Of a stretch of 39,858 nucleotides of DNA, positions 347 to 32,928 are shown piece after piece; position 1 is the first letter of the stretch, and each line of letters starts with the position of its first letter. A model generated the notes under the pieces. The model did not search any database, was not told where the DNA came from, and was given only the letters and a program-made list of their open reading frames with translations. Made by a program: the position numbers and the translations under genes. This DNA comes from an uncultured Chlorobiaceae bacterium (GTDB lineage: Bacteria; Bacteroidota; Chlorobiia; Chlorobiales; Chlorobiaceae), in contig CAILXB010000177.1 in NCBI GenBank assembly GCA_903838025.1, positions 1-39,858 on the forward strand, given 5' to 3'.

Positions 347-1642
347 ATGAGAATAGACAGAATTGAAATAGATAACTTCAAAAACATTGAGAAGTTGTCA
401 ATTATCTTTGGCAAAGGCGTGAACCTGTTTGTTGGAGCCAATGGTAGCGGTAAAACAACTTTGCTTGAGGCAATTAATATTGCTTTAGGAGGATTTTTTG
501 GAGAGCAAGAACAAAAAATGCAAAGGATGATAGAGTTACCTGAAGTTAGAATAATAATGGCGGATGGTAATCCTGTGAGAGTTGAGAAAACATCAATTAA
601 AGCTTTTTCTGATGTAATTGGTGGCAACTGGACTCGAAATTTTAACTCTATTACTAAAAATAATGACGTCAAGAATGCAAGAATCGCAGGTATTTACGGC
701 AGTAAAATCTTAAACGGTTTTTTCAAACCAGAGGACAAAAATATTGCCCCCTTAATTGCATATTATTCTACACAACGATTGTTTAAAGATGCTTCACAAT
801 CTGCCAAGCAGAAATTTGATCCATTAGCCGGCAGAAGAAATGGCTATTTGCAATGCTTGAAAGACAATGCCATTAAAGGAACATTGGTGGAATGGTTAGG
901 AAATGCGGTAACAAGCAGAGCAACAAAGCAAATCAAAGAAATTGATTCTGTTGATTTGGTTTTGGAGAATGTTGAGACGGCCATTAAAAAGACTTTGGCT
1001 TCCTTCAATGATGATATTTGCGAAAATGATATCAAAATATATCAAGAGGCGAAATTTAATTTTGAACTCTTTATTCAGTTAAAAGATAATTTCAGTCTGC
1101 CAATCAACTACTATTCAGACGGCTTTAGAAACATAATTTACTTGATAGTTGATTTGATATGGCGAGCGTCTCAGCTCAATCCATGGTTAACGCTTGATGA
1201 AATTAAAAATCAACAAACGGGATGTGTAACCATTGATGAGATTGACTTGCATCTGCATCCAAAATGGCAAGCAAAAGCAATTGCTATTTTACAGGAATTA
1301 TTGCCCAAAGTCCAATTCTTTATCACCACCCATAGTCCAACTGTTGTTGCTAACTTTGATAACGGCTCTTTATTTGTTATAAATGAAGGCAGTGTTGCAA
1401 AGCACAATTCTGATTATTTTGGAAAAGAAATAAACTTTGTTCTAAGAAATGTACTTGGTGCTTCTGATAGACATGTGCCCACCCAGCAGAGAATTAATCA
1501 CCTGCTTCAATTGATAGATACAGAGCCCGACAGCAAAGAGATTCGACCGCTCCTTGATGGACTGGTTGCCCAATTTGGAGAAGATGATCCGGATATTCAA
1601 AAAGCAATTGCATTATATGAACTTTCAAAAAATCAAGACTAA
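347..1642 (+). CDS. AAA family ATPase, PtuA-like (Septu-type defence)
   Basis: Walker A GANGSGKTT, Walker B CVTIDEIDLHLHPKWQ, H-loop ITTHSP. The stop overlaps the start of the HNH gene (TAATG). Confidence 0.8.
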   Translation: MRIDRIEIDNFKNIEKLSIIFGKGVNLFVGANGSGKTTLLEAINIALGGFFGEQEQKMQRMIELPEVRIIMADGNPVRVEKTSIKAFSDVIGGNWTRNFNSITKNNDVKNARIAGIYGSKILNGFFKPEDKNIAPLIAYYSTQRLFKDASQSAKQKFDPLAGRRNGYLQCLKDNAIKGTLVEWLGNAVTSRATKQIKEIDSVDLVLENVETAIKKTLASFNDDICENDIKIYQEAKFNFELFIQLKDNFSLPINYYSDGFRNIIYLIVDLIWRASQLNPWLTLDEIKNQQTGCVTIDEIDLHLHPKWQAKAIAILQELLPKVQFFITTHSPTVVANFDNGSLFVINEGSVAKHNSDYFGKEINFVLRNVLGASDRHVPTQQRINHLLQLIDTEPDSKEIRPLLDGLVAQFGEDDPDIQKAIALYELSKNQD

Positions 1643-2337
1643 TGCAGTTTATCAAAAAACAAACAACTGAGCCAATTGATTGGAATGTATGGTTTACAGT
1701 ACCTCCTGACAGGCGCACGTTTAATTACGGAACTGACTGTAGTTCATTACCAAGGATTAGGGAGGCAAAACAGTTTTTGATTGATGAGCAACATTCTTTA
1801 TGTGCTTATTGCCAGCAAAAAATTGATATCGATAATTCATCTATTGAACACGTTACACCAAAAGAACACAATAAGGAGTTGTCAACTTCCTACTTTAATC
1901 TGGTCGCTGTTTGCAACAAAAATCAAGTAAAAGATCATTTAACGGGAAAATTTCATTGTGACCGTGAACGAGGAAGTAATATCATTCCTCCTGTTATTTT
2001 TTATTCCAACACAAAGTCAGTTGCCAACAAGACAAATTTTTATTTTACCGCTTACGCAAGTGGCGAAATTGCTGCTAAACCAAGTCTGGAAATCACTATT
2101 AGAAATCAGATAGAAGCTTTTATTAACATCTTAAACCTTAACCATAGTACTCTCAAAGATAACAGAGCAAAGGGTGCCCTCAGAGGTATGACTGCTGCGT
2201 ATTCAAGTTTGCCAGATAAAAGCCATAAGAAAAGCATTTTCTGGCGAAAACAATATGATAGAATTTTAAATAACCAATTTCATCCATTTCGTGAGTATTT
2301 GCTGGTATATATCGGATCCAAAATCGGATTGAATTAA
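1642..2337 (+). CDS. HNH endonuclease, PtuB-like / TIGR02646-like
   Basis: HNH-type LCAYCQQKI...IEHVTPKEHN...NLVAVCNKN. Translationally coupled to the upstream ATPase. Confidence 0.78.
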   Translation: MQFIKKQTTEPIDWNVWFTVPPDRRTFNYGTDCSSLPRIREAKQFLIDEQHSLCAYCQQKIDIDNSSIEHVTPKEHNKELSTSYFNLVAVCNKNQVKDHLTGKFHCDRERGSNIIPPVIFYSNTKSVANKTNFYFTAYASGEIAAKPSLEITIRNQIEAFINILNLNHSTLKDNRAKGALRGMTAAYSSLPDKSHKKSIFWRKQYDRILNNQFHPFREYLLVYIGSKIGLN

Positions 2338-2409
2338 AGAATAGAAAACGACAAATTACGATAAGCTGATCAATACACTCAAACAGTGTTCATGATTGTT
2401 AGGGCTAAA

Positions 2410-2514
2410 TAGCAATATTTCGCGTCCTTTCGATAAATTCGAAACTGGCGGGATTGCCGTCAAGGTCATCAACCACCTTGGCGACACAGTGATGAAGGTG
2501 TTCAAAATATTGTG
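2410..2514 (+). pseudogene. C-terminal remnant of a lost gene, possibly an adenine-specific DNA methyltransferase
   Basis: The frame reads NISRPFDKFETGGIAVKVINHLGDTVMKVFKIL* with no start and an in-frame stop shortly upstream. Family assignment is from memory of the tail motif. Confidence 0.4.
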
Positions 2515-2586
2515 ATGATGCGAAAAAAAAATCATAATGTTAAGCAACGTTGCCATGCAAAAATAAAAGAAAACTGCAAGACCATT

Positions 2587-4338
2587 ATGATTACCCGCCT
2601 GACACTGCGCAATTTCAAAAACGTCGGGGAACAGAGCTACGATTTCACCCGTTTCGACCTGCTCGTTGGAAGAAATAACAGCGGAAAAAGCACCGTGCTT
2701 CAGGCGCTTGCCATCTGGCAGTACTGTGTCGATGAATTCCACCGCTCTGCCCGACGTGGTTCGAAAGGAATACAGATCGTGCTCCCCAACTTCACAGCTC
2801 TGCCGGTACCGGAGTTTAATCTTTTGTGGAAGGACAGAACTGACCGTCGTTATCCTCTTGTCGATGGGAAAAAGAAGCAGGAATTTATCCTCATCCAGAT
2901 TGTGGTTGAATGGCACATCGCTCCTGAAAAAACAGAGGTTTTTGGTGTTGAACTGCGCTATCACTCTCCGCAAACGATGTATGCGATTCCTGATGGCGGT
3001 TGGACAAGATTCCGTGAACTGGAAAAAGCTGAGGTGCTGCCAAAAATCGCTTATGTCCCTCCATTTTCAGGTCTTGAACCCACAGAAAAATGGCTGGATT
3101 TTGCACCGATTCGCCAGCAAATTGGAAAAGGGCAACCTGGCAGTGTCTTGCGCAACCTGCTGCTTCAGGTCTGCCCGCCGATAGACCCTCGGATCAAGAG
3201 CGGCAAGCCAAGGCATCCGCAAGAGTGGCAGGAAGTCTTGAGCATCATGCAACGATGGTTTTCGGTAACAATGCTTGAACCGAAGTATGACTCTCAAAAA
3301 GATGTATCCATCACAGTTGACTACCATCAGAATGGCAAAGAGTTCGATATTATTGCTGGCGGAAGCGGCTTTCATCAGACGCTGACATTACTTGCATTTC
3401 TTTATGGTTATAAGCCGACAACCATCCTGCTCGATGAACCGGATGCTCACCTGCATGTGAACCTGCAACGAGAAATTCTCGATTTTTTCAGGCTGCAATC
3501 CTATGAGAGGGGTACCCAGTTTTTGATTGCAACTCATGCCGAGGAGTTTGCCAGAGGAGTTGATGCAAGTCAAATCCTCTCTTTGATGGGTCAAGAGGCA
3601 CAACGAATTCAATCGGTCCCCGATGTTGTCCGGGCGATGGCCGAAGTGTCGAACGAAGAGATCGTCAGATTGCTGGAATCACCCTGCATCCTCTATGCCG
3701 AAGGAGAGAGTGATGAACGAATTCTGCGGGCGTGGGCCGCCAAATGCGGTGCGCAGGAAGCTATGAACAAACTCTGCTTCAAGCCTATGGGTGGCGGGAA
3801 TAAAATCGCCATGAAAGATGCGGCAGATGAACATTTTAAGGCGTTGCAGCAGATTATTCCTACCGTTTCACGCCTTATGCTCTTTGATTACGATAGCGCC
3901 GAAAACGCATTCCACCCCCAACGGGAGAATCCAACTCTTTTTGAATGGAAACGAAAAAATATCGAAAACTACCTGCTTGTTTCGGATGCATGGAAACGTG
4001 CAGCGTTGCAACTGATGGAGTGCCGGGAAGATGATCTTTTTGCACAACCCGTTTTAAACGTTATTGATCAATTTTTTGCTGACGAAAATTTAACCCTGCC
4101 ACAAGGAAAAAGCTGGCGGGATATTTCAGCAAACATATTCACCGTTGTTGATGGAAAACGGCTGTTGTTTGAGAACGATAATTCCCTCTTCCATCAGTTG
4201 AGAAAAAGGAGTCCATCGTTACAGCTTTTGCGTGAGCAGGTGGCGCTCAGTATGACACCCGATGAAATTCATGATGATGTGCATCGTTTCATGAACAAAT
4301 TGCTCGTCATGACGTCTGTAAAAACAGCATCAGATTAA
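2587..4338 (+). CDS. OLD-like ATP-dependent endonuclease (ABC-type ATPase + TOPRIM)
   Basis: Walker A GRNNSGKST, Walker B TILLDEPDAHLH, TOPRIM CILYAEGESDE...LMLFDYDSAE. Start chosen at MITRLTLRNFKNVG rather than ORF start 2512. Confidence 0.8.
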   Translation: MITRLTLRNFKNVGEQSYDFTRFDLLVGRNNSGKSTVLQALAIWQYCVDEFHRSARRGSKGIQIVLPNFTALPVPEFNLLWKDRTDRRYPLVDGKKKQEFILIQIVVEWHIAPEKTEVFGVELRYHSPQTMYAIPDGGWTRFRELEKAEVLPKIAYVPPFSGLEPTEKWLDFAPIRQQIGKGQPGSVLRNLLLQVCPPIDPRIKSGKPRHPQEWQEVLSIMQRWFSVTMLEPKYDSQKDVSITVDYHQNGKEFDIIAGGSGFHQTLTLLAFLYGYKPTTILLDEPDAHLHVNLQREILDFFRLQSYERGTQFLIATHAEEFARGVDASQILSLMGQEAQRIQSVPDVVRAMAEVSNEEIVRLLESPCILYAEGESDERILRAWAAKCGAQEAMNKLCFKPMGGGNKIAMKDAADEHFKALQQIIPTVSRLMLFDYDSAENAFHPQRENPTLFEWKRKNIENYLLVSDAWKRAALQLMECREDDLFAQPVLNVIDQFFADENLTLPQGKSWRDISANIFTVVDGKRLLFENDNSLFHQLRKRSPSLQLLREQVALSMTPDEIHDDVHRFMNKLLVMTSVKTASD

Positions 4339-4534: not shown

Positions 4535-4561
4535 TATAAACAACGAATTACACTGTTTATA
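4535..4561. promoter_or_regulatory. Dyad-symmetric candidate operator upstream of the PEP-CTERM/exosortase locus
   Basis: Perfect 8-bp inverted repeat TATAAACA-N11-TGTTTATA, about 84 bp before the ATG at 4645. Confidence 0.4.
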
Positions 4562-4644
4562 TACGTAGGGACGTAACACTTTTTTTATAGATGAACAGCA
4601 TTCATACCATTAGTCTTTTAGCACCACCAAAAACGAAAGTAACG

Positions 4645-5097
4645 ATGAGAAAGATACTCTATGGATTGCTCGCAGTGGTCTTGGCCACGGGGGTGTTGAG
4701 CGGAACTGTTCGGGCTGCGGATGTAGCAAATATAACCCAGGGTCAGGCACAATCGGTCAATACTGGGAACGGCGCGAACATTGGGGGAGATGCAAATACG
4801 GTCTCTGGTACAGGGAGAGGGGCCGGTGGGCCCGGCGATGGCGAAGGTCCGGGCAACGGAGCCGGTCAGGGGATCGGGAATGGACCATCAGAACGGGAAA
4901 ATGGGTCATCAGAGAACGAAGATGAAGCGTCGAGAAGTCTGATGGGTGCTCAGACAACGCTCGTTGCATCATCGGATATGGCAGCATCACCAGCCCCGGA
5001 ACCAGCAATGCTGGTGCTTTTGGGCGTTGGTGGAGTTCTTTTGGTAACATTCTGGCTGAAGATCAGATCTGCCAGGATATCGAAGCGCGCTGCGTGA
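4645..5097 (+). CDS. Short Gly/Asn-rich PEP-CTERM sorting-signal protein
   Basis: Signal peptide MRKILYGLLAVVLATGVLSGTVRAA. C-terminus is PAPEPAMLVLLGVGGVLLVTFWLKIRSARISKRAA (PEP + hydrophobic helix + basic tail). ORF could start at 4591. Confidence 0.8.
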   Translation: MRKILYGLLAVVLATGVLSGTVRAADVANITQGQAQSVNTGNGANIGGDANTVSGTGRGAGGPGDGEGPGNGAGQGIGNGPSERENGSSENEDEASRSLMGAQTTLVASSDMAASPAPEPAMLVLLGVGGVLLVTFWLKIRSARISKRAA

Positions 5098-5984
5098 AGT
5101 GGCTGCTGGCAAGCTGCCTTTTTGCGGTAGCCCTTGCCGGGTGCTCCCCGAGTGGTGGCGAAGGCGAGAGGGGGCGTGTAAGCGCGGTGGTGAACGGCGT
5201 TGAGATAACCCGGCGTGAGGTCGATTTTTTGTCTCGTCGCCCGGCTCTCCCCGAAGCTGAGGGGGAGGCGGAGCGGCAACGCATCCTCTCGCTTCTAATT
5301 CGCAGGGAGCTACTTGCACAGCGAGCATTGGAGATGAAACTGGAGAACTCTCCAGACTTCATTGTCGCGATGTATGAAGCCCGCCGCAAAATACTTGCCG
5401 GGATGGCTGAGCAGCATGTTGCCACGCAAGCCGTAAAGGTTTCGCTGGAAGCCGCCAGTAAGGTCGTTGCAAAAAATCCCTGTTTTTTTTCACAGAGAAA
5501 ACTCTTTGTCTATGATCAAGTGGTTATACCTGGCGTTGACGAAGGGCTTCTCAGCTCACTGAATACAAGCGCTGGCAAAGGAGCCTCGCTGGCTCAACTG
5601 CTCAACAAGGTCAGCACAAAAAAGATGCCTTTTCGACGCACCATGCAGGTGCTGACAACCAATCAGATTGACCCGGGTATTTTTGAGGTCTTAAGTACGT
5701 TGCGTTTGAACGTGCCACAGGTAGCCCGTATAGAGAAGAAGTTTTCCATGATTCTTGTATTGCGAGCTACGGTGCCGATGCCGCTTGAAGGCGAGGCGGC
5801 CAATCAGGCTGCCGCCGACATCCTGAATGAACAGCAGCGCAGAATGGAACTTTCGAAAACGCTGACCAAATCACTCGATTCGGCAAAAGTCACCTTTTTT
5901 GGCGAATTTGCTTCTGCCAAGAACAGAAAGAAGTTGCCCGAAGCGGTGGTTGATCTGCCGCCTCCTGCGTTACTGCAACCATAA
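5094..5984 (+). CDS. EpsD-like peptidyl-prolyl isomerase lipoprotein (SurA N-like)
   Basis: Lipobox VALAGC. VVNGVEITRREVDF and the Leu/Arg-rich helical N-domain resemble SurA/EpsD. GTG start overlaps the upstream TGA (GTGA). Confidence 0.65.
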   Translation: MKWLLASCLFAVALAGCSPSGGEGERGRVSAVVNGVEITRREVDFLSRRPALPEAEGEAERQRILSLLIRRELLAQRALEMKLENSPDFIVAMYEARRKILAGMAEQHVATQAVKVSLEAASKVVAKNPCFFSQRKLFVYDQVVIPGVDEGLLSSLNTSAGKGASLAQLLNKVSTKKMPFRRTMQVLTTNQIDPGIFEVLSTLRLNVPQVARIEKKFSMILVLRATVPMPLEGEAANQAAADILNEQQRRMELSKTLTKSLDSAKVTFFGEFASAKNRKKLPEAVVDLPPPALLQP

Positions 5985-5998
5985 CCCGTTGTGCGCTC

Positions 5999-6856
5999 AT
6001 GACCCTTAAACCGCAAGCATCATGGTTCCCGTGGGTGCTCTTCAGTCTGCTCTTTTCGTATTCTGTGGCAAGGTACCTGCTCCTCTATCCACCATTTCCC
6101 GGAAAAAGCGATCAGGCGCTCCTTTACGCTGGCATAGTCTTCGCTTTATGGTCGGAACGCAGGGCGGTTGCAGCATCGTTGCTTTGCAGGGAGACGGGTG
6201 CTCTCATGCAGGGTTCTGCACTTGTCGCTGTCGGTTGCCTGCTCTATGCCATCGGACGTTTCTACCTGTCGGCAACCATGGATGTCTGGAGCCTCTTTCT
6301 GATGGCCTCAGGATTGGTGGCGGCGCTGGCTCCGCGAAATTATATACGCTCTGCACATTTTATCGCTTTTGCTGGCACCGTTGTTGTGGTGATAGGGTGG
6401 GCTGCGCCAAACATCCTCTCTTCTGAACTTGCGGTTGCCATTGCATCAGTCAGTGCAAGAGTGTTAAGCGCAACAATCCTTCCTGTGGTCGCCAATGGCG
6501 TTATTCTCTCTTTTGGTCCATACAGCGCTGAGGTTACTGAAGCGTGCTCAGGCATGAATTCAATTTTTTCATTGACGGCGCTTTTTGTCATTTACCTGAG
6601 AGCAGGTACACGACGATCTCCATGGCATATTGCGTTACTGGTTCTTTCTCTTCTTCCTGTTGCCGTACTGACCAATTTGGGACGGGTAATTTCGCTTGTG
6701 CTGGCGACATGGTACGTCGGCGACGGTTTTGCACAGGGACTTTTCCATGAAGTTGCCGGAATTATCTCGTTTATTGTCGCTCTCTTGCTGCTTTCGGTTC
6801 TCGATTGGCTACTCACCCTGCATAAAGGATCAAAAACGTCTACAGTATGCGCCTGA
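5999..6856 (+). CDS. Exosortase family transmembrane protein
   Basis: Multi-TM protein with exosortase signatures EACSGMNSI, LTNLGRVI and FHEVAGI (Cys/Arg/His catalytic residues). Confidence 0.85.
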   Translation: MTLKPQASWFPWVLFSLLFSYSVARYLLLYPPFPGKSDQALLYAGIVFALWSERRAVAASLLCRETGALMQGSALVAVGCLLYAIGRFYLSATMDVWSLFLMASGLVAALAPRNYIRSAHFIAFAGTVVVVIGWAAPNILSSELAVAIASVSARVLSATILPVVANGVILSFGPYSAEVTEACSGMNSIFSLTALFVIYLRAGTRRSPWHIALLVLSLLPVAVLTNLGRVISLVLATWYVGDGFAQGLFHEVAGIISFIVALLLLSVLDWLLTLHKGSKTSTVCA

Positions 6857-7533
6857 AAAAGCATAGCATTGTCTCCCTCGCTCTGGGACTCCTGATCCTC
6901 TGTTCGCTGCTTTTGGTCGAGTCGAGAGCGCATCTCCTGGTGAAAGGCTCAAAACCAGATCTTGAACGGCTTGTAAGCCTGCATCCCCCCGGATGGAAAC
7001 TGATTGAGGGATCGCAGGTAAAATTCTTGTGGAACGAATCGGTTTTGACTCAATACGATGTTGTTGCTTCAAGGATCTATCAACATACCGATGGCCGGCG
7101 GGTGCTGGTAGTGATGACCTGGAGCGGTGATGGGTTCCGCCGCCAAGGGCACGATCAGCAGGTATGCTATGGTGCCAGCGGATTTACGGTCAGTTCACCG
7201 CACTCCGTTTCAATCTCGACAGGTACCGACAGCATTGAGGCAATGGCCTTTACAGCCAGCCAGCCCTCTGTAGAAGAAGATGTGCTTTACTGGAGAATTA
7301 CTGATGGAATAAGGGAAAGAGGCATCGACAGCAGGAATACCATTGTCCACCGGCTCCAGCGACTGATCTATCTCTCCAATTTGTTTCAAGGGAAGTTGCC
7401 CGACAATCTGATGGTGAGGGTATCGAGCGTAAGGGAACGAGATGGTCAACCTGCAACAGCCCATCTCGATTACGTCAAAGAGTGGCCCAAGGCTATTTCT
7501 CCAGTTGATCGTGCACGAATTATGGGCCGATAA
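6847..7533 (+). CDS. EpsI-like exosortase-associated protein
   Basis: N-terminal TM, HPPGWKLIEGSQV, QQVCYGASGFTV and the adjacent exosortase context. Overlaps the exosortase by 10 nt. Confidence 0.75.
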   Translation: MRLKKHSIVSLALGLLILCSLLLVESRAHLLVKGSKPDLERLVSLHPPGWKLIEGSQVKFLWNESVLTQYDVVASRIYQHTDGRRVLVVMTWSGDGFRRQGHDQQVCYGASGFTVSSPHSVSISTGTDSIEAMAFTASQPSVEEDVLYWRITDGIRERGIDSRNTIVHRLQRLIYLSNLFQGKLPDNLMVRVSSVRERDGQPATAHLDYVKEWPKAISPVDRARIMGR

Positions 7534-31355: not shown

Positions 31356-31880
31356 ATGAACAACGTGATGCGCAAGATTCTGCTGATTGGATACATACTG
31401 CTTCCTATGATATTCAGTTCATGCTCGTCAACGCGTGTTCCATGGGGAGGCAAAAGAATTCTGTCACCAGAGGAGGCTTACCGACAGGGAAAAATCAAAA
31501 ACACCCCCTACGTTATTAACGGTCGGGCCTATGTTCCCATGAGCTACCAGGAGGCACTCTCTTTCGAAGAGACCGGGATAGCGTCATGGTACGGCCAGGA
31601 GACGCTCGACCAACACAGCGGACAGTTGACCGCCTACGGGGAAGTTTTTGACCCCTCGCAGCCAAGCGCCGCACACAAATATCTGCCTCTACCTTCTCTT
31701 GTAAAAGTAACCAATCTCGATACCCATGCGTCAGTGATTGTCCGGGTCAATGATCGCGGACCATTTGTCGACAATCGCGTTATCGACCTGAGCGCAGAAG
31801 CGGCAAAACAACTGGGATTCTTCAAAAAAGGGACGGCCAAAGTCAAGATTGAGGTTGTTAACAATCAAGCATGGCATTGA
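31356..31880 (+). CDS. rlpA: RlpA-family septal ring lytic transglycosylase lipoprotein
   Basis: Lipobox-like IFSSC, GIASWYGQE...TAYGEVFDP, VKVTNL...VIVRVNDRGPFVDNRVIDLS. Confidence 0.88.
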   Translation: MNNVMRKILLIGYILLPMIFSSCSSTRVPWGGKRILSPEEAYRQGKIKNTPYVINGRAYVPMSYQEALSFEETGIASWYGQETLDQHSGQLTAYGEVFDPSQPSAAHKYLPLPSLVKVTNLDTHASVIVRVNDRGPFVDNRVIDLSAEAAKQLGFFKKGTAKVKIEVVNNQAWH

Positions 31881-32928
31881 AGTTTTTCGGCTGGCGACAT
31901 ACCCAACTGCGTTTGTGATAGGCATAGCCAGCAATCAGCGGCAAAGCAATGGTTGCTTCGGCAAAGACCATCTGCTCATGAATGGTATCAACCTTGCCCC
32001 ATGAACTGGCCTCTTTGAGAGTAGAGCCGGAAAGTGCTCCGTCACGCTCATCGGCGACCGTAATCTGTACTGCATAGGTGTGCATGGAGACGTCATCATG
32101 GCCAAGCACTTCGGCGGCAACAACAATATCCTGGGTAAAGTTTTTCGGTACACCTCCTCCTATCATGAAAAGACCAGTCTTGTCATTCTCAATCTTGATT
32201 TTGGTCAATTCACGAAAATCCTTCACCGAGTCGATGGCTACATGCTGCTCGGGATTCTGCCACTGGTGACGTACCAGCCCGAATCCGGCAGAACAGTCCG
32301 AAAATGCGGGACAGAAAATCGGCACACCCTTTTCGTATGCCTTGTAGACGATGGAGTTTTTATCGAAATTATTTGCTTCAATATATTTCGCCATTTCCAC
32401 AATAAATTCACGGGAGGAATAAACTCCTGGCGGCATGGAGTTGGCGATGAGGGCTGTTGTATCATCGCAGACGCGAAGATCATCTTCATCAATAAAGGTG
32501 TCGTAAATACGGTCGATGTGCAGCTCGCGAAGAATGGCGTCATCAATAAACTGCGTACCCTTGTAATGGCGGAATCCAAGAGCTTCAAAAAAGTCCTGAT
32601 CAACAATGTTCGCACCCGTAGAGACAATAACATCAACCATGTTGTTATCGATCATGTCAATCAGCACCTGCTTTAATCCTGCGCTGATCAGCGAACCAGC
32701 CAAGGTTACAATGACTGCGCACTCCTCGTCTTTCTGCATGAGATCCACAATGGAGGCCGCTCTTGCAAGATTGCGTGCCTGAAAAGCAGTATCACTCATC
32801 TGGTCAATAAGAGGAACAATATTCAGTTGCTTGATATCAATATGGCGAACCGGCGCGCTCAGCAACTCCTCTTTTCTGACTCCAGACTGCATAACGACTC
32901 CCGACACAATTGAAAAGTGACAAAACAA
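31858..32928 (-). CDS. Deoxyhypusine synthase-like protein
   Basis: ECAVIVTLAGSLISAGLKQVL, DVIVSTGANIVDQD, GGGVPKNF, and SSWGKV at the DHS active-site lysine position. Confidence 0.88.
   Translation of the reverse strand: MFCHFSIVSGVVMQSGVRKEELLSAPVRHIDIKQLNIVPLIDQMSDTAFQARNLARAASIVDLMQKDEECAVIVTLAGSLISAGLKQVLIDMIDNNMVDVIVSTGANIVDQDFFEALGFRHYKGTQFIDDAILRELHIDRIYDTFIDEDDLRVCDDTTALIANSMPPGVYSSREFIVEMAKYIEANNFDKNSIVYKAYEKGVPIFCPAFSDCSAGFGLVRHQWQNPEQHVAIDSVKDFRELTKIKIENDKTGLFMIGGGVPKNFTQDIVVAAEVLGHDDVSMHTYAVQITVADERDGALSGSTLKEASSWGKVDTIHEQMVFAEATIALPLIAGYAYHKRSWVCRQPKNFNAMLDC

Follow-up and report, generated by a model that had tools for sequence, protein, structure and literature searches.

A putative dedicated exosortase cassette with one small Gly-rich PEP-CTERM protein in a Chlorobiaceae genome

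Does an exosortase whose gene adjoins one small PEP-CTERM gene, outside any EPS setting, belong to a sorting system dedicated to that single protein? The question is raised by a locus near the start of the window, the 39,858-nucleotide stretch of DNA analysed here, which is contig C177 of a Chlorobiaceae MAG (G000; 80% complete, 2.38 Mb, 329 contigs). The exosortase acceptor, tail discrimination and the role of EpsI are hard to study in systems with dozens of scattered substrates and an EPS cluster. Single-substrate cassettes would make this poorly understood sorting enzyme unusually easy to test.

The four-gene cassette and its surroundings

Four tightly packed plus-strand genes at 4645–7533 encode a PEP-CTERM protein, an EpsD-family lipoprotein, an exosortase and EpsI. 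The initial annotation had described a four-gene exosortase locus with a short PEP-CTERM protein, and both profile matches and orthologues bore this out. The features are as follows.

4645..5097, plus strand: PEP-CTERM substrate, 150 aa, start taken from the orthologue alignment
4645..4716, plus strand: predicted Sec signal peptide MRKILYGLLAVVLATGVLSGTVRA, by reading the sequence
4987..5094, plus strand: PEP-CTERM tail (SPAPEP, hydrophobic helix, basic end), by tail profiles
5094..5984, plus strand: EpsD-family peptidyl-prolyl isomerase-like lipoprotein, 296 aa, lipobox LAGC (TIGR02925)
5999..6856, plus strand: exosortase type A, 285 aa (PF09721; clade of five)
6545..6547, plus strand: codon of the predicted catalytic Cys183 (ACSGMNS), invariant
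6683..6685, plus strand: codon of the conserved Arg229, invariant
6746..6748, plus strand: codon of the conserved His250, invariant
6847..7533, plus strand: EpsI, 228 aa, one N-terminal hydrophobic helix and a soluble domain, His102-x4-Cys107 (TIGR02914, PF11984)

Two gene overlaps reported initially are present: the GTG start of EpsD at 5094 lies on the substrate stop codon (GTGA, 4 nt), and the exosortase (5999–6856) and EpsI (6847–7533) share 10 nt. The first open reading frame runs from 4591 to 5097 (168 aa); orthologues begin instead at the equivalent of the ATG at 4645, so the substrate has 150 aa, in agreement with the length of about 150 aa first proposed. The signal peptide, Gly/Asn/Ser-rich middle and PEP-CTERM tail of that description were likewise recovered. 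Read by eye, the basic start, hydrophobic stretch and AxA-like end of the signal peptide are all kept in the orthologues. The mature region of about 90 aa is Gly/Ser/Asn-rich, and the C-terminus carries the tail SPAPEPAMLVLLGVGG...RSARISKRAA. By the same reading, the window substrate and every intact type-A orthologue show the whole PEP-CTERM plan: a signal peptide, a PEP motif, a hydrophobic helix and a basic extreme C-terminus.

The tail scored just under the cut-offs of both general PEP-CTERM models (TIGR02595: 15.0 bits, cut-off 16; PF07589: 17.4 bits, cut-off 20.7), so routine annotation could miss this substrate. It reached 80 bits with a type-A tail profile and, with a profile of mixed Chlorobiaceae tails, 5.2e-16; both profiles include the window tail. 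By profile search, the substrate family is limited to the five type-A exosortase loci among 98 genomes of the class, and weaker matches to its profile were caused by the tail. Its core, NTVSGxGxGAGGPGDGxGPGNGAGQG, is strongly conserved and is shorter in second tandem copies.

The PPIase-like lipoprotein of the initial annotation proved to be of the EpsD family (TIGR02925: 157.7 bits, cut-off 108.9). It is without the C-terminal membrane part seen in its paralogue on contig C189. The exosortase matched PF09721 over nearly its whole length (3e-29; score 102.6, cut-off 25.7). Against the named NCBIfam subfamilies it scored 130.2 for XrtV (cut-off 313), 102.3 for XrtB (275) and 61.9 for XrtA (208). 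It is thus outside every named subfamily, and the nearest, XrtV and XrtB, are both far below cut-off. The Cys/Arg/His signatures noticed earlier correspond to Cys183, Arg229 and His250, which are invariant in 14 of 14 Chlorobiaceae exosortases of three types. The predicted structure of the enzyme was of moderate confidence (pLDDT 73.6). A search of the PDB gave no structural match better than E=0.6 and no sequence relative, and the literature searched here contained no experiment on any Chlorobiaceae exosortase, a direct cleavage assay included.

EpsI passed TIGR02914 (51.6 bits, cut-off 42.8) and PF11984 (1e-19), in line with its first description as EpsI-like. Its His and Cys are invariant in 19 of 19 Chlorobiaceae EpsI proteins, and H-x4-C occurred in 49 of 50 EpsI-like matches from other, mostly proteobacterial loci. 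The EpsI model (pLDDT 80.6) gave weak best matches in the PDB (E 0.01–0.05, TM about 0.3–0.4), namely Apa, PsbP, DcrB and SciW. SciW engages a secreted protein by its transmembrane domain; a SciW-like fold would therefore suit EpsI as a membrane-tail partner, and we regard this likeness in the model as a lead.

A profile scan detected no glycosyltransferase among the scanned genes of the window, which upholds the earlier remark that none flank the locus. The cassette lies between Septu/AAA ATPase genes on one side and acyl-CoA ligase and biotin genes on the other, and the polysaccharide synthesis neighbours of an EPS-linked locus were absent. Pairwise dN/dS among the three orthologous loci was 0.13–0.28 for EpsD, the exosortase and EpsI, and 0.27–0.39 for the substrate. 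As these values are well below 1, purifying selection seems to act on all four genes.

Directly upstream of the cassette, positions 347–4338 hold Septu-like PtuA and PtuB genes and an OLD/GajA-like AAA ATPase gene. At the orthologous site, G054 (L053) carries type I restriction-modification genes, and G074 (L049) a transposase-like ORF. A fixed insertion site was rejected, as the sequence past the acyl-CoA ligase differs widely between relatives. Matches of a simple promoter scan were at chance level, and those of a terminator scan modestly above it. Further along, a deoxyhypusine synthase homologue (31858–32928; PF01916, 9e-101) is unusual for a bacterium.

Exosortases and PEP-CTERM genes in this genome and its relatives

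Genome-wide statements rest on profile searches, and PEP-CTERM genes were counted with a profile that draws on 17 tails from Chlorobiaceae, the window tail included, and spans three types. G000 encodes three exosortases by PF09721, on C177 (the window), C189 and C134; the cassette as the sole exosortase system of the cell was therefore rejected. Up to E=10, the census gave exactly three PEP-CTERM genes, and each exosortase has one of them directly upstream. Because the window tail is part of the profile, its own E-value is no independent evidence; the informative result is that nothing further matched. One target per exosortase thus holds in G000, three enzymes with three genes, in a genome 80% complete from which further substrates may be missing. 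The whole-genome scan that had been recommended revealed no scattered PEP-CTERM proteins. The initial annotation had named many other PEP-CTERM proteins together with an EPS cluster elsewhere as evidence against its one-substrate reading: the former were not found, and polysaccharide-type genes do occur at C189 and C134. That reading stands for the single paired gene and fails as a description of the only exosortase system in the cell. By gene content and linkage, the window cassette as one of three parallel dedicated systems in G000 survives testing.

The C189 cassette (type B) consists of a 271-aa PEP-CTERM protein, EpsD, exosortase and EpsI, and is paralogous to the window set; the two exosortases share 59% identity. 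Its neighbours are DegT aminotransferase, methyltransferase and radical SAM genes. The C134 locus (type C) encodes a 290-aa PEP-CTERM protein with DUF4114, a TPR protein, a distant exosortase, a small membrane protein and an EpsI-like protein, near acyltransferases, a family-25 glycosyltransferase and a group-1 glycosyltransferase. Each locus, like the window cassette, has one PEP-CTERM gene directly upstream of the exosortase, whereas their substrates are larger (271 and 290 aa) and their neighbours EPS-type; C134 also differs by its TPR protein in place of EpsD and its far more distant exosortase. Contamination as the source of C189 is unlikely, since types A and B coexist in the near-complete genomes G037 and G080 as well. 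At L007 (6082–8151) the C189 exosortase set is followed by a HipA-type gene and then a second, truncated epsI copy.

The window exosortase falls in a monophyletic clade of five (SH-aLRT 98) from five Chlorobiaceae genomes. The type-A substrate family and this clade occurred only ever together, linked in all five genomes with the substrate upstream of the exosortase. Exosortase patterns run against 85,000 species genomes gave no type-A relatives beyond four of the same five genomes. In the A1 form (window, G074, G054), substrate, EpsD, exosortase and EpsI adjoin the acyl-CoA ligase, and the biotin genes are also present where the contig extends far enough. In the A2 form (G037, G080), two tandem short substrates precede exosortase and EpsI, and EpsD is not adjacent; gmhA/ribH-type genes lie on one side and a hemE-type gene on the other (names read from sequence); the first tandem substrate of G037 is frameshifted. 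The proposed synteny comparison thus gave a divided result, with substrate–exosortase linkage in five of five loci and the four-gene order in only three. The two chromosomal settings are different and neither has EPS genes; no glycosyltransferase lies near a type-A locus in the five genomes, as far as contigs extend.

A motif scan found no sigma-54 promoter before the window substrate gene. All four tandem A2 substrate genes showed a near-perfect sigma-54 match (10–11 of 11, e.g. TGGCACAATAATTGCA) 64–88 nt before the start, at L052 7031–7046 and 7858–7873 and at L051 7235–7250 and 7787–7802. These matches are not independent because the four copies are homologous. Two type-C substrates scored 10 (G053) and 9 (C134).

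Similar pairing was observed in relatives. In G054 (99% complete), a type-A and a type-C exosortase are each paired with one of two PEP-CTERM genes; a third census match in this genome, at E=0.43 and interrupted by stops, is noise. G074 holds a single exosortase and a single PEP-CTERM gene. One type-C exosortase adjoins two tandem PEP-CTERM genes in the finished genome G025 (where both genes lie directly upstream of the exosortase at 1.571 Mb) and in its relatives G026 and G029; the census profile found nothing further above noise in these three. One-enzyme sets with one, or two tandem, targets therefore recur. G080 has three further PEP-CTERM genes, G037 also has other PEP-CTERM proteins, and other Chlorobiaceae genomes are of the usual many-target kind, where PEP-CTERM proteins number up to 24.

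An exosortase above cut-off was present in 26 of 98 genomes of the class, a patchy distribution. Many PEP-CTERM matches were counted in G013 (24), G018 (21), G009 (16), G008 (15) and G070 (9), where PF09721 and TIGR04178 found no exosortase and PF11984 no EpsI; G013 and G070 are 98–99% complete. A different sorting enzyme, or genes missing from the assemblies, would account for this, and the founding paper noted the same exosortase absence for C. tepidum, with two PEP-CTERM proteins. In that paper, Plut_1390 of Pelodictyon luteolum also appears as an EpsH-like match, in a genome scored 0 for PEP-CTERM. The present pairing may explain this orphan exosortase by dedicated substrates that the general model missed; if G025 is Pelodictyon luteolum, Plut_1390 has dedicated targets that escaped the 2006 model.

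Mechanism, tail specificity and competing explanations

With moderate confidence we favour a dedicated single-target cassette that exports, cuts and probably attaches one small Gly-rich protein. Sec would export the substrate, whose C-terminal helix and basic end would hold it in the inner membrane. As a periplasmic lipoprotein, EpsD might keep the unstructured chain accessible. The exosortase would then cut at or near the PEP motif, using Cys183 with Arg229 and His250, and remove the tail; it would probably transfer the chain to an envelope acceptor, with EpsI assisting at the membrane. The presumed product is a small Gly-rich protein at the surface or outside the cell. Sec export, the hold by the C-terminal helix and the cut near the PEP motif follow the established scheme (PMC1569441, PMC12188702). 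The protein families, the invariant Cys/Arg/His, the paired census, the exclusive co-occurrence of substrate family and exosortase clade, the monophyly of that clade, the dN/dS values and the EPS-free settings all favour this dedicated cassette. The missing adjacent EpsD at two of five type-A loci and the other PEP-CTERM proteins of G080 and G037 count against it.

Tail profiles gave a less distinct picture. With a profile of the three A1 tails, only two of the three A2 tails outranked every other tail, at 41–46 bits for A2 tails and up to 42 for other Chlorobiaceae tails; the A2 profile gave 35–46 bits for A1 tails and up to 34 for others. This cross test separated type A from other tails weakly. 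The stronger separation by the type-A tail profile is partly circular, as that profile holds the sequences it finds. A clean type-A-only tail code was rejected, because the gap fell to about one bit or vanished in the cross test. Tail specificity is therefore suggestive, not clean. As type-A tails resemble other Chlorobiaceae tails, another exosortase may also process the window substrate, and, judged from sequence, the window exosortase may also process other substrates. That one cell holds three mutually insulated systems, each with a private substrate, the window's displaying a small Gly-rich protein without an EPS partner and exosortase sorting thus untied from EPS, is a tentative extension that we hold less likely than not.

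The window set might instead be a displaced part of an EPS-linked system, which processes its neighbour, shares substrates and acceptor with C189, and whose product binds an exopolysaccharide made elsewhere. The paralogy of types A and B (59% identity), the DegT aminotransferase and methyltransferase genes adjoining the C189 set, the overlap of tails between types, the three further PEP-CTERM genes of G080 and the ties of PEP-CTERM proteins to EPS in the literature (PMC9850573, PMC12188702) are consistent with such sharing. However, type A is found in G054 and G074, where no type-B exosortase was detected, no type-A locus lies inside an EPS cluster as far as contigs extend, and G000 has no unpaired PEP-CTERM gene, which makes a displaced part rather unlikely.

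Decay offers another account, in which other substrates and EPS genes were lost and the system is on its way out. Exosortases are patchy (26 of 98 genomes), one G037 tandem substrate is frameshifted and C189 carries the truncated second epsI, but four intact genes with dN/dS well under 1 in three orthologous loci and the strongly conserved substrate core render a remnant improbable. The small protein could also be a mere neighbour whose tail is a membrane anchor, as its score just below the curated PEP-CTERM cut-offs would allow. Strict co-occurrence and adjacency in five genomes, the GTGA overlap and the like arrangement of two other exosortase types make this very hard to credit.

Relation to known sorting systems

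Each part of the cassette is known, and single-target exosortases are known in kind: exosortase E with VPEID-CTERM is reportedly a dedicated single-target system. It likewise joins one exosortase to one target, and is said to differ in its exosortase family with a fused protease, its tail motif and its phylum. New are the unnamed exosortase clade, whose small Gly-rich substrate lies outside any EPS context, and the presence of three dedicated sets within a single genome.

The EpsD-EpsH-EpsI, XrtB and XrtV systems (TIGR02925, TIGR03113, NF035943, NF045608, NF045609) have three protein families in common with the cassette. XrtV and XrtB are the best NCBIfam matches of the window exosortase, and EpsI types B and V of the window EpsI. 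Unlike those systems, the window exosortase scores far under the cut-offs (130 against 313, 102 against 275), the flanks lack EPS synthesis genes, and one small substrate lies in the operon in place of many scattered ones. Rhombosortase and GlyGly-CTERM pairs, whose enzyme and target genes tend to adjoin in one-target genomes (PMC3237569), follow the same dedicated logic with an enzyme of an unrelated serine protease family.

The minimal type-A set consists of one exosortase, one EpsI and one substrate of 78–152 aa, two genomes having no adjacent EpsD. With several paralogous sets in one genome, tail specificity could be tested by direct swaps.

A similar cassette was observed in another phylum, in a Burkholderiales MAG (L147, 1284–7241), with EpsD, a PEP-CTERM protein, a further EpsD, exosortase and EpsI. 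Its exosortase is 57% identical over part of its length, and a response regulator and a histidine kinase adjoin the set.
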